A stretch of 46,019 nt of DNA, from assembly GCA_030950375.1 (NCBI GenBank), contig JAUZRN010000039.1, positions 1-46,019 of the forward strand, written 5' to 3'. A model generated the notes under the pieces. That model did no database searches. It saw only the letters and a program-made list of their open reading frames with translations, and was not told the DNA's origin. Position 1 is the first letter of the stretch. Each line of letters starts with the position of its first letter. Of the stretch, positions 16,108 through 45,683 are shown one piece after another. The stretch is from Rhodothermus sp. (GTDB lineage Bacteria > Bacteroidota > Rhodothermia > Rhodothermales > Rhodothermaceae). The position numbers and the translations under genes are program-made.

Positions 16108-16368
16108 ATGAAACATCGCATGCGCTACATCAGTGCCCTACTGCTCCCGACCTCTCTGAGCGCGGGCATACTGACACAGGTTGATTACTGCGCCGCCCCT
16201 TCCTGGCTACAAACGCTGATTCCCGAAGCGCTGGCCAATCACAGAGCCTGTGAGGGCTACTGTGAGATCTTCTATCCAGAATGCGGGGATGGTACAGCCA
16301 TCTGCCATGTCCCTGCCTGCTACGACGAGGAAGGATGGTATTTTTGTTACACCCTGCCGCCGCATTAA
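16108..16368 (+). CDS. Small secreted Cys-rich peptide
   Basis: An 86-residue protein if the ATG at 16108 is used; an ATG at 16120 is an alternative. The N-terminus (MRYISALLLPTSLSAGILTQ) is signal-like. The mature part has six or more cysteines (DYC, ACEGYC, PEC, AIC, PAC, WYFC) and is rich in aromatics, ending FCYTLPPH. This spacing suggests a disulfide-bonded fold. No family is recognised. It sits 10 bp upstream of a propeller lipoprotein gene, the same order as at 41491-42901. In Bacteroides, small NVEALA-type peptides occur beside 6-bladed propeller proteins; the similarity here is in layout only, not in sequence as far as I can see. Confidence 0.7.
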   Translation: MKHRMRYISALLLPTSLSAGILTQVDYCAAPSWLQTLIPEALANHRACEGYCEIFYPECGDGTAICHVPACYDEEGWYFCYTLPPH

Positions 16369-16378
16369 GCGTAGAAGG

Positions 16379-17431
16379 ATGACGAAGTCTGGAGCAATTA
16401 CGTCAAGACAGCAGTACGCGATCGCACTGATCGCGTACTGCCTCTCTGTAGTGGTCGGATGCAGGCAGGCCCCTCCTGCATCTCAACCAGCCGTACCGCT
16501 CATCACGCAATCTCAGACAGAGCGTCTCTGGGAAACGCCAGCTTTTACCGAATTGCCTGGCTCACGCACGTTCTCCGGGTATCATCTGGTAGGGCCCTAT
16601 CAGTACCGCAAACAGGGGGTGTACGTAATCGACCTGGGTGACCTTTCCGTCAAACGGATCGGACTCGATGGGCGCCTGCAGGTCGTCTACGGCAAAGGAC
16701 CGGGCGAAGGCCCCGGTGAACTACAGGCCCTTCAAGATTTTTACGTTCATCCCCGGGGCGACGTCTTTATCGTAAGTGGCAACCAGCGATTGCTGACCCA
16801 TTTCACCGCCCGGGGCGAATTTGTCGCCCGCTATCCTTTGGAAGCCTGCCATCCCCACCGTATTGCGGGTCTGGATGTGGCCCATCTGGCCATCTGGTGT
16901 CTGCATCCGCAGCAACCCAATCCAATGTTTCTAAAACTTACGCTGGATGCCCAGCCCACAGGTCGCTTTGGTACCCTGATCGATGTCTCCATTCCCATGG
17001 CTTTCTTCGCCTACGAAGGCTGGATGGTGGACCGCCCGGAAGGTGGCTTTGTGTTTGTCCCCATGCGGGCCAGCTATCTGTACTTTTTTGACGCAGCTGG
17101 CCGCCTGGAGCGCATCATCCAGACCATCGATCGCCTGGAATATCCTCTGGATCGACTCCAAGCCAGCAATCGCATTACGTTTCGCGAACTTTCCCAACCG
17201 GTCCACCAGTTTCTTCTATCTTTTACCGAAAGAACTTTTTTCGTCACCGTAGGCATCCAGAAGCCTCAGGGTGGACGCTTGATGGCTCTGGACAGTTATG
17301 ACCGCGCGACAGGACAATACAGGTACTCTGCACGATTGCCGGTAAACGGGATGGCCCTGGTAGCCGATGAGTATGTGTTCATCAACGTCGGCGATACTAC
17401 GCTGGCCATCTATCAGGTGCACTGGCCGTGA
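16379..17431 (+). CDS. 6-bladed beta-propeller lipoprotein
   Basis: A 350-residue protein. The start at 16379 gives a lipoprotein signal peptide with lipobox VVVGC (C near residue 28). The body shows repeated blade-like strands: YVIDLGDLSVKRI, the family signature GKGPGEGPGELQALQDFYV near residue 110, then DVFIVSGNQRLLTHFTARGEF and YLYFFDAAGRLERII. This is the 6-bladed beta-propeller family abundant in Bacteroidota, usually of unknown function. It would be anchored in the outer or inner membrane facing the periplasm or surface. The first gene of the pair encodes a Cys-rich peptide 10 bp upstream, so a ligand or scaffold relation is possible. Confidence 0.82.
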   Translation: MTKSGAITSRQQYAIALIAYCLSVVVGCRQAPPASQPAVPLITQSQTERLWETPAFTELPGSRTFSGYHLVGPYQYRKQGVYVIDLGDLSVKRIGLDGRLQVVYGKGPGEGPGELQALQDFYVHPRGDVFIVSGNQRLLTHFTARGEFVARYPLEACHPHRIAGLDVAHLAIWCLHPQQPNPMFLKLTLDAQPTGRFGTLIDVSIPMAFFAYEGWMVDRPEGGFVFVPMRASYLYFFDAAGRLERIIQTIDRLEYPLDRLQASNRITFRELSQPVHQFLLSFTERTFFVTVGIQKPQGGRLMALDSYDRATGQYRYSARLPVNGMALVADEYVFINVGDTTLAIYQVHWP

Positions 17432-39471: not shown

Positions 39472-41356
39472 TCATTCGTAGGTCCGTCGTAGCGGATGTT
39501 CGGGCACGAACCAGGTGACCCCCAGTCCGGCTACCACAAGCACCAGCACAAAGCGGTAAATGCGCCCGATAGCTTTAGCAAAGACCTGGCGCAGCTGCTC
39601 GAGCACCTGTCGCCGTGCACGGTCGATTTCGTGACGGATCAGCGTCTGCGCGACAGAAGCCTCGTAATGGGCTGCCGCTCTCAGCCGTGCCTTTATAGCC
39701 AGTGGCAAAGGTGCCATTTGAAGTGCTTGCTCCAGCATGCTGTCGTCGTGGGCGGTCAGCGCAGCATCAAGGCGCACTGCCAACGAATCAAAGCGCGCCT
39801 GCAACGCTTCCAGTCCCCCGCGGTGTCCTTCCCGGAAGCTAAATTCTGAATTTTCTGGAACGTGCGCCGATAGCGAAAGAGCCAGCACCGTGCCCATCAC
39901 AGCCGTTCCCATTACGCCTCCGATCTGCCGAAACAGCATGGCTGCGCTGGTGGCCTGTCCCAGCTTTCGCACATCCACCGCGTTCTGGATAGCCAGTGGA
40001 AACAGCGGCATCGTGGGTCCCAGACCCAGTCCGCACAGGAACAGCTAAAGCGCAACCTGCCATGGTGGCGTCTCGGGTGTGAGCGTCGTTAGCAATCCTA
40101 CGGCGAGCAGTAGCAGGAGCTCACCGCCCAGTATGAACCGCCGGTAGCGCCCGAAGCAAGCGACCAGCTGACCTGAGACGGTCGATCCCGTAGCTACCCC
40201 CAGCGAAAACGGAATCATGCTCAGTCCAGCCACGGTGGCTCTGACGCCGCTCGCGCTCGTCAGAAACAGCGGGACAAACAACACGACGCTTAAAAATACC
40301 GCCCCATCAGCACCAGCGCCAGCACTGAAGTGGTGAAAACGCGCTCATGAAACAGCCCCAGATCCAGGACGGGCTAAGGTGAACGCCGCGCCTGTCGTAC
40401 AAACAGAAGCAGCAGCAATGCGGCCAGCGCAAACAGCCCGATCGTTTCCGGTGCATCCCACGGATGCGCTACGCGATCGAGTTGCAATGCCAGCCCCAGG
40501 GCTGTCAGCGCTCCGGAAAAAAGCAGCATCGAGCATCCATCCAGCACGCGATGCGTAACCGGCGGGTGCAGGGGAGGCATTTTGCGCCAGATAAAACCAA
40601 GTGCCAGCAGACCAGGCGGCAGATTCACGTAGAAGACCCAGCGCCAGCCTTCAATGCCCGGCACCAGCAGAGCACCATGGTCGGAAACCGCGCCGCCAAT
40701 AAAAAACCCGAGTACGCTTGCCAGCGCAAAAACGGCTTCCACCAGTCCCTGATAGCGCCCCGCTCAGCTGGCGGAAAAAGATCCGCAATGATAATGAAAG
40801 CCAGTGCGAAAAGCCCGCCCCCTCCGATTCCCTGAAAAGCCCGAAATACGATGAGCTGATTCATGCCATCGCCCAGGATCGGCAGCGAACCGAATTCCCC
40901 CGCCAGCCCGCACAGAAACGATCCACTCAGGAAAAAACTGATAGCTATCAGTACAATGGTTTTGCGACTCTGCAGATCAGCCAGCTTGCCGTAAACAGGC
41001 GTCGCGACCGTAAAGGTAAGCAAATAGGCGGTAACAACCCAGGCGTAGCGATCCAGTCCCTGTAGATCAGCTACCATACGTGGCAGCGCAGTAGCCACAA
41101 TGGTTTGATCCAGTGCACCCAGAAACAGCGCCAGGTGCGCCCCGACCAGTGTATAGCGACGTTCAGGCGAAGCCAGCAGACGCGCAGCCCGCGTTTTCGG
41201 TTGGTTACCACCCGTCGATAAACGCCTGGGTCCAGCCGTGATTCCTCTGGACCATCTGCTCGCCCGACTTTCACGATGAATCGCTGCCTTCGAGATCTCT
41301 GGAGGCTCTCGGAAGTCCTTGAAAAAGTCGATCATCCTCAATATTGTGAAGAGCAT
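39472..41356 (-). pseudogene. DHA2-type MFS drug transporter, broken by four lesions
   Basis: The minus strand encodes a 14-helix major facilitator of the EmrB/QacA (DHA2) type in pieces. The first piece reads ALDQTIVATALPRMVADLQG and RAFQGIGGGGLFALAFIIIA. A frameshift near 40755 leads to GGAVSDHGALLVPGIEGWRW, then a TAG at 40374-40376 interrupts. The continuation GLFHERVFTTSVLALVLMG shifts again near 40300 into LFVPLFLTSASGVRATVAGL, a TAG at 40045-40047 interrupts, and the same frame goes on with LFLCGLGLGPTMPLFPLAIQ to the end. Four independent changes make decay much likelier than sequencing error. It once exported drugs or organic compounds. Confidence 0.9.
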
Positions 41357-41490: not shown

Positions 41491-41802
41491 ATGAAACGAT
41501 GGATGCTTCTGGCCTGGCTGCCTTTCCTGCTGGGCAGCGGCAACGAACGACCTACAGGGTTCGATCTGAACACAACAACTTACGGGCAGCCTCTCTGTGC
41601 ACCGGCGGCTATCGAAGATTGCAGCGATGGCATTCCCCGATTGTACTGCCGAATATGGAAAGTCCATGTCATGGGCGTCTTCGGTGCCACACTCCCCAAA
41701 ATTCATTTTCAGTGTGAAACGGGAGGCTCTTTCCGATGTGATGGCGAAGCTATTCTGGCGCTGTTGACATCAGCAGGTGGTATGAATGAAGAACCGGAGT
41801 AA
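41491..41802 (+). CDS. Small secreted Cys-containing peptide
   Basis: A 103-residue protein from the ATG at 41491, with a signal peptide (MKRWMLLAWLPFLLGSGN). The mature part has five cysteines (PLC, EDC, LYC, FQC, FRC) in two groups. There is no recognised family and no clear sequence match to the peptide at 16108, but it has the same position before a propeller gene. Its end overlaps the propeller gene by 17 bp, so the two are translated together. It is AT-richer than the surroundings, as is its partner, consistent with acquisition from elsewhere. Confidence 0.7.
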   Translation: MKRWMLLAWLPFLLGSGNERPTGFDLNTTTYGQPLCAPAAIEDCSDGIPRLYCRIWKVHVMGVFGATLPKIHFQCETGGSFRCDGEAILALLTSAGGMNEEPE

Positions 41803-42901
41803 TTGTGCACAAAAAGCCATAACGCTGCAGATGATTTCCCTTATGATTGTGTTGTTGCTGGGCCTCATCGCGTCGGCGGTGCAGGCCCAGCAACAACGCC
41901 TGCGCGTTACTTTCCGGCTGGAACGACCCATTCTGCTCAAAGAGCCCCCTGAAGCTTACATGCAAACAGTAACTTCGGTTACTCGCTTGGACTCGCTACT
42001 CTGGATCACAGGCGGCCAACCGGGTAGCACAGTGCTTTACGTCTATGACCTGAATGGCCAATTTATTCAACAGGTCGGCGAGCAGGGAGATGGTCCCCAT
42101 GCGTATCGCAGTGCTGGATTTCTACGAATTTTTCAGGATACGCTCTGGCTGTGGGACAACATGGGGCTCAGGCTACTGGGTATCGATCCGCAAACGCGAC
42201 AAGTCGTTCAACGATATGTCGACTTCAGCTTAAACTGCCAGGACTTTATCTATCGCTATCCTTTTGTGATCTTTAGTCACTCCCAGAGAACCTCACAGTT
42301 TATTACGATTTTCGATCTGCGCTACAAACGATACGTGGCAAGTTTTGGAGAAGGCCAGTATGAAGACGTAATCCTGTCCCTTATGGCGGGAACTGGGCAT
42401 TTAGCCTACGAGGATTCCCTGGTTTACTTCGCTCGACCATCGCAAGCTGCACTCTACCGACTGCATCTTCGCACGCGCCAGATTCAACGTTTCCCATTAG
42501 AAGTTCCAGGCTTTACCGCTGCTTCCTACGAGGGGCCACGTGTACCTGCCCTTACCCCGCAAGCTGTGCGCTATATCTTCACGCATTCGGTGAACCGCGG
42601 CGTCTGGCGAACTCGAACGGGTCTTGTTCTTTTAGTCGACACTGGAGCCTTTCAATTCAAGGGTTTTTCCCCGGTGAGCAACGGGAATCGCTCATTGAAT
42701 TTTGTTATAGTTGATTTCCGAACATTACAACAGATTGGCCACATTCATTTTGAAACGGACTTTATTGTAAAGAACGGTCTGAACCAGTTTGTAGGCTGGG
42801 ATCCGGAGACGACTACCTTCTATTTTTACAGCGTTCGAGAAGAAGAACCTCTACACCAGCTCACGCCGGTGCGGTTCTATCTGGAGCCGGAGGCACATTA
42901 A
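41786..42901 (+). CDS. 6-bladed beta-propeller protein, secreted
   Basis: A 371-residue protein with a long signal peptide (hydrophobic core MISLMIVLLLGLIASAVQAQ). The first blade has TVLYVYDLNGQFIQQVGEQG with DGPHAYRSAGFLRIF, which stands where the GxGPGE signature lies in the paralogues, then DTLWLWDNMGLRLLGIDPQT and TIFDLRYKRYVASFGEG. It is the second intact member of the family here. It has no lipobox, unlike the one at 16379, so it may be free in the periplasm or outside. Base composition is lower in GC than neighbouring genes. Transfer with its peptide partner is likely. Function unknown. Confidence 0.78.
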   Translation: MKNRSNCAQKAITLQMISLMIVLLLGLIASAVQAQQQRLRVTFRLERPILLKEPPEAYMQTVTSVTRLDSLLWITGGQPGSTVLYVYDLNGQFIQQVGEQGDGPHAYRSAGFLRIFQDTLWLWDNMGLRLLGIDPQTRQVVQRYVDFSLNCQDFIYRYPFVIFSHSQRTSQFITIFDLRYKRYVASFGEGQYEDVILSLMAGTGHLAYEDSLVYFARPSQAALYRLHLRTRQIQRFPLEVPGFTAASYEGPRVPALTPQAVRYIFTHSVNRGVWRTRTGLVLLVDTGAFQFKGFSPVSNGNRSLNFVIVDFRTLQQIGHIHFETDFIVKNGLNQFVGWDPETTTFYFYSVREEEPLHQLTPVRFYLEPEAH

Positions 42902-42919: not shown

Positions 42920-44593
42920 TCACACAGCACAGCAGCTGAGCTGGCGCACATCCTTGGAAAACCCCAGCGCGGCCAGCTTGAGCGCTTCAGACCAGGTCAG
43001 GTAGGGATGGAAGCGTCGCGCCAGCTCGGAAATCGGAATCTCGTAGCGCATGGCCAGCGATAGCTCCATCAACAGCTCGCCGCCTTCGGGGGCTACGATG
43101 CGGGCCCCCAGCAACTGATCGGTACCGGGATTGCGCAGCAACTTAACAAATCCGCGTGTGTCGCGCCCTACCAGGGCCCGCGGCACTTCGGTCAGAGGGA
43201 GCGTGGATACCTCATAGTCAAGGCCGGCTGCCTGCACCTCCCGTTCGTTCAGGCCGATCCCACCCACCTGCGGATCGGTAAAGACCACCCAGGGTAGTGC
43301 CTGATAATCCCGCGGCGTATGCTGTCCCAGCAGGGCATTTTCGGCGGCCAGCTGCCCTTCATAAGCTGCTGCATACACAAACGGGGGGTTACCAATCACA
43401 TCGCCCGCCCCCAGCACGGTCGGTACCGTCGTTCGCAGCGTTTCGTCCACCTGCAAAAAACCCTGTCGGTCGGTGGCAATACCCAACGCCTCCAGTCCCA
43501 GCTCGTCTGTGTTGCCCCGGCGACCGGTGGCTACGAGCAGATGAGTCCCTTCCAGCTGATACGTCTGTCCCTGGCGTTCGTAGGAGACCACCACACCACG
43601 TTCAGTCCACGACACCTGGACAACCCGCGCCTCCGTCTGGATGTTAATCCCCTCTGCCTGCAGATGCGCTGCCAGCACCGAAGCAACGTCGGCATCTTCC
43701 TGGGGTAGGATCTGGGGCAACAGTTCCAGCACCGTTACCCGACTGCCCAACCGGGCAAACGCCTGCGCGTTTTCCAGGCCAATGTAGCCACCGCCCAGTA
43801 CGATCAGGTGCACTGGCAGCCTATCCAGCCGATAAAGTGTTTCGTTGGTGAGATAGGGACCGTCGGCCAGTCCCGGCACGGGTGGCAGCGCCGTGCGCGA
43901 ACCGGTCGCGATCAGCACAGCCCGTCCCGAGATCGCCTCATCCCCTATCTGAATGCTGGTCGGCCCGGCCAGGCGCGCCCGTCCTTCCCGAAAGACAATA
44001 TGCTCACCATCGATCAGATCCAGGTATTTATGCTGGCGCAGCTCGTCGGTAAGCGCCCGCACCTGACCGATCAAAGCACCGAAGTCCACCACCTGACTGG
44101 TCGAGCGAATTCCAGCAAACGAATGATGTGCTGCCCGGTGATGGGCTTCGGCTGCCCGAATAAGCGCTTTCGATGGCACGCATCCGACGTTCACGCAGGT
44201 ACCTCCAGGCGGCAACCCCTCGTTGACGATCAGGCTCCGGAAACCCAGCTCACGTGCCCGTAGCGCAGCTGCAAACGCTGCAGATCCCCCTCCAATGATG
44301 AGTAAATCGAAGTCGATCCGATCCGAAGCCTCCTCGAACGGCGTTGCTTCCCCGATTTCTCGCACCACTTCCCACCGCTCCAGCCGATACCCGTGACCCG
44401 CCCGGGCTACAGCCCTCGCCAGCGCATCGGCGTCCACGGTATCCCCTTCCCAAGTGACCACAGCCCGACCACGCTGCCAGTCGAGTACCTGCACACGCAC
44501 CACACCAGACACCCGAGACAGCGCGTGCTCAATCGCACGGGCGCAATGCGCGCAGGTCATCCCGCTGATATGCAATTCAAGAAGTTTCCTCAT
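42920..44593 (-). CDS. merA: Mercuric reductase
   Basis: A 557-residue flavoenzyme. An N-terminal heavy-metal-associated domain (GMTCAHCARAIEHALSRVSG, residues about 11-70) precedes the FAD/NADPH oxidoreductase core with the redox motif GGTCVNVGCVPSKALIRAAE and NAD-binding VLGGGYIGLENAQAF. The C-terminus ends LSCCAV, the vicinal Cys pair that receives Hg(II), diagnostic for MerA among dihydrolipoamide-type enzymes. It reduces Hg(II) to volatile Hg(0) in the cytoplasm with NADPH. It overlaps the transport gene by 4 bp as the last gene of the mer operon. Confidence 0.96.
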   Translation of the reverse strand: MRKLLELHISGMTCAHCARAIEHALSRVSGVVRVQVLDWQRGRAVVTWEGDTVDADALARAVARAGHGYRLERWEVVREIGEATPFEEASDRIDFDLLIIGGGSAAFAAALRARELGFRSLIVNEGLPPGGTCVNVGCVPSKALIRAAEAHHRAAHHSFAGIRSTSQVVDFGALIGQVRALTDELRQHKYLDLIDGEHIVFREGRARLAGPTSIQIGDEAISGRAVLIATGSRTALPPVPGLADGPYLTNETLYRLDRLPVHLIVLGGGYIGLENAQAFARLGSRVTVLELLPQILPQEDADVASVLAAHLQAEGINIQTEARVVQVSWTERGVVVSYERQGQTYQLEGTHLLVATGRRGNTDELGLEALGIATDRQGFLQVDETLRTTVPTVLGAGDVIGNPPFVYAAAYEGQLAAENALLGQHTPRDYQALPWVVFTDPQVGGIGLNEREVQAAGLDYEVSTLPLTEVPRALVGRDTRGFVKLLRNPGTDQLLGARIVAPEGGELLMELSLAMRYEIPISELARRFHPYLTWSEALKLAALGFSKDVRQLSCCAV

Positions 44594-45210
44594 AGCGATG
44601 TCTCCGTTTTCAGACTGGCCTCAAATCCAGCGCTGCGGACGGCCTCCATGAGTTGTTCCACCGACACCTGCTCCGGGTTGAAGCGCACGCGCGCTTCCGG
44701 CGGCTCCAGCGTCACGATGGCGTCCTGCACTCCTTCAAGGCGTTGTAATGCATAAACCACTGCCTGGCTACAGGCCTCACAGGTCATCCCCTGCACATCC
44801 AGTATCACTTCTCGGGTCGTCCCCTCGACAACCCCATCATTCATCGTTACTGCTGCATGGGAGCGCCCGATAAGTTCTGGCGCAATCAACACCCCCAGTA
44901 CCAGTACAGTGCCCAGCCCCAGAAGCAACCGACGCGTCTTTGGAGACGTGCCTGTCTCACAGGCGCAGTCTGGATCTCGTGCACGCCGCATCTCTCGATA
45001 CCAGGCAAACCCCAGAGCCCCCAACGCCAGCGCTATAAAAAACGGCCGATACGGCTCCAGGGCCGACAACTGTCCCACCCAGGCCCCTCCTATACCGACA
45101 GCTACAGCCGCCAGTGGCCCAACGCAACAAACCGAAGCCAGCACACCGGCCCCTACAGCTGCCAGCAGGCTCGAACGAGCAACTTTATCCGGCTTTTCCG
45201 ACGCCTTCAT
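44590..45210 (-). CDS. merTP: Mercuric transport fusion MerT-MerP
   Basis: A 206-residue protein. The MerT part has three membrane helices with the Cys pair in the first (ASVCCVGPLAAVAVGIGGAW), and a loop with DPDCACETG, the second MerT pair. After helix three (LLLGLGTVLVLGVLIAPELI) comes a MerP-like heavy-metal domain with GMTCEACSQAVVYALQRLEG. Such fusions occur in Bacteroidota-type mer operons. The MerP-like domain is on the periplasmic side, so it would catch Hg(II) and pass it through the MerT helices to MerA's HMA domain. It overlaps the regulator gene by 26 bp. Confidence 0.93.
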   Translation of the reverse strand: MKASEKPDKVARSSLLAAVGAGVLASVCCVGPLAAVAVGIGGAWVGQLSALEPYRPFFIALALGALGFAWYREMRRARDPDCACETGTSPKTRRLLLGLGTVLVLGVLIAPELIGRSHAAVTMNDGVVEGTTREVILDVQGMTCEACSQAVVYALQRLEGVQDAIVTLEPPEARVRFNPEQVSVEQLMEAVRSAGFEASLKTETSL

Positions 45211-45622
45211 GACGCACCTCCTTCAGGTTGAAGGTTAACTGAATGCGATCCAGCTCCAGCTCGTCGAACAGCCGTACAAGCAAGCGAGCAAACGGATTTA
45301 CCCGACAAACCCGATAGTAGATGGTCTGCGCTTCCCGCCGCGCTTCGACCAGCGCCTTCTCGCGCAGAATCTTCAGGTGCCGTGACACAGCCGGCTGTGA
45401 AATCTCAAAAATATCGGCCAGGTCACAGACGCACAGCTCACCAGCCCGATGCAGTACGTAGAGCATCCGCAATCGCGTTTCGTTGCCGGCCGCCTGCATA
45501 AAGGCCGCCAGCGCCACCAGATGATCGTTCTGGAGCGCCTCCGCACGCAGCCGGGCCAGCTTCTCTGGATCAACAGCCACCCGCACACACGTGCGATCGG
45601 TTATCGCTTGCCGCCTTTGCAT
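45185..45622 (-). CDS. ArsR/SmtB-family repressor of the mer operon
   Basis: A 145-residue winged-helix regulator from the ATG ending at 45622. The DNA-recognition helix is ISQPAVSRHLKILREKALVE, and a metal-sensing ELCVCDL motif (helix alpha-3 site, Cys-x-Cys) sits just before it, as in ArsR and CadC. It should repress the operon until Hg(II) or another thiol-binding metal binds. The palindrome at 45626-45655 just upstream is its likely operator. Using an ArsR-type protein in place of MerR is known from several mer operons outside Proteobacteria. A TTG at 45631 is an alternative start and would lie inside the operator. Confidence 0.92.
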   Translation of the reverse strand: MQRRQAITDRTCVRVAVDPEKLARLRAEALQNDHLVALAAFMQAAGNETRLRMLYVLHRAGELCVCDLADIFEISQPAVSRHLKILREKALVEARREAQTIYYRVCRVNPFARLLVRLFDELELDRIQLTFNLKEVRHEGVGKAG

Positions 45623-45625
45623 TTT

Positions 45626-45683
45626 TAACAAAACGGTTAATTAACGGTTTTGTTATATTAATGAATTACCATGAGCCTGTCAA
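45626..45683 (-). promoter_or_regulatory. mer promoter and operator palindrome
   Basis: On the minus strand a consensus -35 TTGACA (45678-45683) and -10 TAATAT (45655-45660) are separated by 17 bp. Directly downstream lies a 30-bp palindrome (45626-45655), TAACAAAACGGTTAA facing TTAACGGTTTTGTTA with one mismatch pair, covering the likely transcription start. This is the usual place for an ArsR-type operator. Confidence 0.8.

Follow-up and report, generated by a model that had tools for sequence, protein, structure and literature searches.

The window analysed here, a stretch of 46,019 nucleotides that makes up contig 39 of a 3.03-Mb Rhodothermus genome, carries two overlapping genes that probably form a cognate exported two-gene peptide-binder system, a reading to which we give a probability of roughly 0.68. 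The first gene would encode a Sec-exported peptide with a mature part of about 50-80 aa, in general with 5-8 cysteines and in most cases with a C-terminal Glu, whose fold in the cell envelope is probably stabilised by disulfide bonds. The second gene often overlaps the first translationally. Its product would be an exported six-bladed NHL-type propeller, which is periplasmic in some families and lipid-anchored in others and may serve as the dedicated binding partner of the peptide, presumably with one peptide per propeller. The basis of this reading was observed directly: both open reading frames and their conservation, a near-obligate adjacency, the matching of peptide families to propeller clades, and swapping and turnover of the pair within the genus.

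The gene pair and the propeller fold

The peptide gene, pep1 (41491-41802, forward strand), encodes an exported five-Cys peptide of 103 aa belonging to family F1. According to its reading frame, the translation begins MKRWMLLAWLPFLLGSG, with a hydrophobic and charged N-terminus, and ends ...NEEPE. The propeller gene, prop1 (41786-42901, forward strand), encodes 371 aa with a signal peptide ending ...AVQAQQQ. Its ATG at 41786 lies upstream of the pep1 stop codon TAA (41800-41802), giving the 17-bp overlap (41786-41802, forward strand) of a secreted five-Cys peptide and a secreted propeller that the first-pass annotation had described. An alternative prop1 start, the ATG at 41831, would abolish the overlap, and in the G005 and G006 orthologues the initial 15 residues are missing. 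Overall, gene overlaps of 4-38 bp recur in about 16 peptide-propeller pairs. The earlier proposal that the two genes form one unit is supported, and their association is conserved across genomes. Both genes are indeed AT-richer than their neighbours, with GC contents of 0.529 for pep1 and 0.504 for prop1 compared with 0.580 for the window. Among the 29 open reading frames of at least 200 aa in the window, prop1 has the lowest GC content, and the propeller gene at 16.3 kb has the second lowest (0.559).

That second propeller belongs to the pair at 16.1 kb which had been noted as a match to the first. By position the pair is real: pep2 (16108-16368, forward strand), an 86-aa open reading frame with a signal peptide and seven Cys, stands before prop2 (16379-17431, forward strand), a six-bladed lipoprotein propeller with the lipobox VVGC. 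The propeller profile matched prop2 at E 4e-64, prop2 itself being among the seed sequences of that profile. However, no relatives of pep2 were found in 60 genomes.

The assignment of prop1 as a six-bladed propeller was confirmed by both profile search and predicted structure. It matched Pfam DUF5128 (PF17170) at 23.9 bits, with a curated cut-off of 22.9, and its paralogues reached up to 46.8 bits, some of them falling just under the cut-off. The AlphaFold model (pLDDT 83.5, pTM 0.81) found its best structural matches among six-bladed propellers. The nearest solved folds were two Bacteroides propellers, 4raa (BF0058, Z 21.6) and 3s9j (BVU_1028, Z 21.3), followed by NHL domains (Z 17-19) and PAL (3fvz, Z 17.2), the latter ranking under plain NHL domains. 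The model of the peptide had a pLDDT of 46.7 and was left unused. The signal peptide of prop1 is cleavable and followed by no lipobox, while lipoboxes are present in many other propellers. All propellers aligned together proved too diverse to be scanned for patterns. Within the propeller alignments that were scanned, we found no invariant residues of a catalytic type, the invariant columns being Gly, Pro and one Asp. From this we infer that the propeller binds its peptide, binding being likelier than catalysis. To our knowledge, no function has been assigned to these six-bladed propellers, which are abundant in Bacteroidota.

Conservation and turnover within the genus

Homologues of pep1 precede homologous propellers in G003, G005 and G006 (twice in the latter) and at a paralogous locus in the window's own genome, with the conserved motif EDCSDG.PRL.C.IW...C.TGG..CD. 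In G007, a member of a different family, the peptide before the propeller carries the motif EDCSDG.PRL.C.IWKV....ITC.TG...KC. For comparisons with unsaturated dS, the peptide had a dN/dS of 0.18-0.39 and the propeller one of 0.09-0.14. The first-pass annotation had named a lack of conservation or a high dN/dS as grounds for doubting the peptide frame, and we found neither. Judged from these comparisons, pep1 is a real gene under purifying selection. Between the window and G005, dN was 0.46 for the peptide and 0.096 for the propeller. Fast peptide evolution was considered as evidence of an arms race and dropped, since this contrast was not general across pairs: the ratio of peptide to propeller rates was mostly about 1-2, and about 1.3 in most orthologous pairs, with both genes constrained. 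There was no sign of positive selection on the peptides, and almost every comparison gave a dN/dS well below 1. Similar rates together with the lack of positive selection argue against a strong arms race.

Some copies of the peptide gene are broken, by a TAA in G003 and, in the C46 paralogue, by an ATG that has become ATA. A broken or remnant peptide gene was found beside a full-length propeller at six loci (L009, L013, L018, L054, L058 and L065) and the converse, an intact peptide beside a broken propeller, at one (L017), an asymmetry that comes from seven cases in total, in draft assemblies.

The pair occupies a site with a recognisable gene order in relatives: glyoxalase, cupin, MFS transporter, pair, merA-like gene, mer gene and regulator. 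The site of the pair is empty in G002 and G004, where the transporter is intact; its length is 593-603 aa in G002, G004 and G006. In the window, a type A pair stands beside the transporter (39472-41356, reverse strand), which is broken into fragments in different frames and which we regard as context outside the system. The pair does lie beside a dead transporter, as reported earlier, but this is incidental, because in G006 the transporter that adjoins the pair is undamaged. In that genome, a type B pair precedes the beginning of a type A propeller, where the contig ends. The opposite order, A then B, is found in G003, where a type A pair is accompanied by a remnant of a type B propeller (L128:5345-5883) between the pair and merA. 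In G005, the type A pair lies on the other side of a remnant of the transporter. In the window, the region downstream of the pair (42920-45631, reverse strand) holds a mercury-resistance-like cluster conserved in G002-G005. Judged by eye from the sequence, it comprises two proteins with an HMA domain, one mercuric-reductase-like (with the domain at its N-terminus) and one MerT-like, and an ArsR-type regulator.

Compared with G006 in steps of 100 bp, the window is about 71-92% identical over the flank and the signal peptide, about 50% over the mature peptide and the propeller, and 80% over the final 100 bp of the propeller. In terms of sequence, the difference between the two is a cassette swap with one junction within the peptide gene. 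The first-pass annotation had suggested that the pair was imported as a unit. This is supported only in part. Among members of the genus, this locus has the pair or lacks it, or shows it swapped, duplicated or moved, but homologues of the pep1 type were found only in Rhodothermales (a search covering 40 genomes of that order). For that reason, gain, loss and recombination inside the lineage would be the simpler reading.

Adjacency and family matching across genomes

The genome of the window contains about 33 related propeller matches, many of them directly preceded by small signal-peptide open reading frames with 6-8 Cys. Propeller matches per genome vary widely in the genus, with 33 in G000, 30 in G006, 27 in G003 and 21 in G005; congeners with low counts have 5 (G002), 2 (G004) and 1 (G001). 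Across the sampled loci, a Cys-containing signal-peptide frame stood upstream of 43 of 105 propellers, or about 40 once doubtful calls are removed (the peptides of L063, L099 and L103 are probably spurious and were excluded from the pairing count), against 0 of 129 control frames, which were non-propeller open reading frames from the same loci. The commonest peptide family, F2, has the pattern CExDxC...C...C...C..T..C. Used alone against 60 Rhodothermales genomes, the F2 profile gave 29 matches, and all 29 lay upstream of an independently identified propeller on the same strand no more than about 0.9 kb away, a result that is in part by construction because the profile seeds came mostly from near propellers. 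Matches that were not seeds also adjoin propellers (e.g. G006:C200, two in G020, G181:C59 and the second copy in G027). The chance of lying next to a propeller was about 0.4-0.5% per match. Against 394 genomes of the phylum, F2 matches were confined to the class Rhodothermia; in G121, G150, G168 and G410 the propeller comes next, and the first three of these genomes lie outside Rhodothermales. The co-occurrence in related genomes on which the earlier proposal depended was therefore found, and the near-obligate placing of the peptide ahead of a propeller is a class-wide pattern.

The reverse does not hold to the same degree, as about half of the sampled propellers have no recognisable peptide. 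In a FastTree phylogeny of 104 propellers, which has long branches and of which only well-supported groups were used, a clade of 22 members has no upstream Cys peptide, the partner being absent or unrecognised. These many propellers without a peptide suggest that propellers can work alone. Beyond the pair, a Pfam tally of the nearest neighbours gave no recurrent operon partner. At one locus (L010:3214-3903), a DsbA-like protein of the thioredoxin fold (PF13462/PF01323) overlaps the end of a peptide-propeller pair.

Peptide families and propeller clades matched each other. Each of the families F1, F3, F5 and F6 is confined to one supported propeller group, and none of 500 shuffles gave a value as low. 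The propellers of F1 and F3 group together, and the F1 and F3 peptides have a common motif. In addition, each of the five intact operons of the genus that encode two F2 peptides (L011, L014, L015, L059 and L069) also has two propellers. A C-terminal Glu ends 35 of 49 peptides and 15 of 104 propellers, a contrast inflated by the kinship of the sequences. This residue, often preceded by Pro, spans several peptide families.

Possible roles and known counterparts

Adjacency by itself is no proof of interaction, and the peptide might have an unrelated envelope role and merely be co-transcribed, hitchhiking upstream of propellers. The isolated pep2 would suit such an arrangement. Nevertheless, the 29 genome-wide matches included no orphan copy, peptide family matches propeller clade, and peptide and propeller were swapped and relocated jointly, so that we consider ordinary co-transcription improbable. 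The reading that the propeller is a maturase that modifies or clips the peptide in the manner of PAL or a cyclase is less probable still. It draws on PAL being among the structural neighbours of prop1 and on the C-terminal Glu, which could serve as a processing signal; however, with just Gly, Pro and one Asp invariant, the metal ligands of the PAL type are not conserved, and plain NHL domains ranked above PAL.

Two roles for a cognate pair are more plausible, each of them tentative. The one we rank first is an exported antagonistic, bacteriocin-like peptide acting against related cells, with the propeller as immunity protein or carrier in the envelope of the producer. Cassettes that are multicopy, patchy and swapped speak for such a system, as do double operons with one peptide per propeller, and the more frequent loss of the peptide than of the propeller (6 loci against 1, few cases in draft assemblies) may point the same way. 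On the other hand, the low dN/dS and near-equal rates of the two genes, the many propellers without a peptide and the lack of a dedicated exporter recurring among the nearest neighbours all weigh against it, and we know of no propeller that acts as an immunity protein. Nearly as likely is a surface or signalling module, in which the propeller would display or sense a peptide that serves as ligand, adhesin or component of the envelope. Both genes have been under steady purifying selection and have long diverged together, which favours this role, as do the lipoboxes of many propellers, seemingly including those linked to NVEALA peptides. By contrast, there was no sensor kinase or TonB partner among the neighbours, and the peptide appears to be dispensable, given the broken copies beside intact propellers. 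A literature search on NVEALA and DUF5128 found no paper that settles the role of the pairs.

Whichever role applies, the family-specific and near-obligate pairing turns into a concrete hypothesis for the propellers, namely binding of the adjoining peptide, and suggests that the NVEALA peptides of Bacteroides are part of a much wider phenomenon. More speculatively, and with slightly less than even odds in our estimate, exported six-bladed propellers across Bacteroidota could generally act as platforms for disulfide-rich peptides dedicated to them, NVEALA in Bacteroidales and F1-F6 in Rhodothermia each having their own propeller clades. They would then form a large undescribed class of peptide binders, possibly involved in antagonism between close relatives.

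Among known propellers, those of the DUF5128 and DUF4221 type are the closest, as prop1 shares the fold of 4raa and 3s9j and belongs by sequence to the DUF5128 family. It differs in having only 13% and 9% identity to these two structures, respectively, and a cleavable signal peptide in place of a lipobox. With NHL domains and PAL, prop1 shares the six-bladed NHL-type fold, whereas the propeller family alignments have no conserved catalytic or metal-binding residues.

The first-pass annotation had held that the peptides do not look like NVEALA, and this proved correct: neither the window peptides, nor the F2 peptides, nor any Rhodothermales genome searched gave a match to PF14055, and the NVEALA motif is absent. 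Weak matches at L022, a lipoprotein without a propeller, and L023 were under the cut-off, and NVEALA membership of the Rhodothermales peptides was rejected. The window and F2 peptides gave nothing significant against Pfam, NCBIfam or PDB either, and by these searches the Rhodothermia peptides are undescribed in both family collections. The same annotation had placed NVEALA-type peptides of Bacteroides near six-bladed propellers, and the layout is indeed alike. In two genomes of the Bacteroidales type, 10 of 11 true NVEALA peptides were directly followed by a propeller-like lipoprotein, with the propellers of L130, L132 and L140 judged solely by a G/R-x-G-x-G-P-type motif, and the Rhodothermus propeller profile found a match in 8 of the 11 loci. 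Two NVEALA loci have a lipoprotein with a CTSC motif immediately upstream, which, together with the DsbA-like protein in one Rhodothermus operon, fits disulfide-bonded peptides. The two kinds of pair are alike in that a short peptide (about 70-90 aa), with a hydrophobic N-terminus and mostly containing Cys, stands directly upstream of a six-bladed propeller on the same strand, in several copies per genome. They differ in that the Rhodothermia peptides have Cys patterns of their own (CExDxC-C-C-C-xTxxC in F2) and often a C-terminal Glu, and in that gene overlaps are common in the Rhodothermia pairs. On the best reading, the Rhodothermia pairs are the equivalent, in this class, of the pairs of NVEALA peptide and propeller in Bacteroidales.
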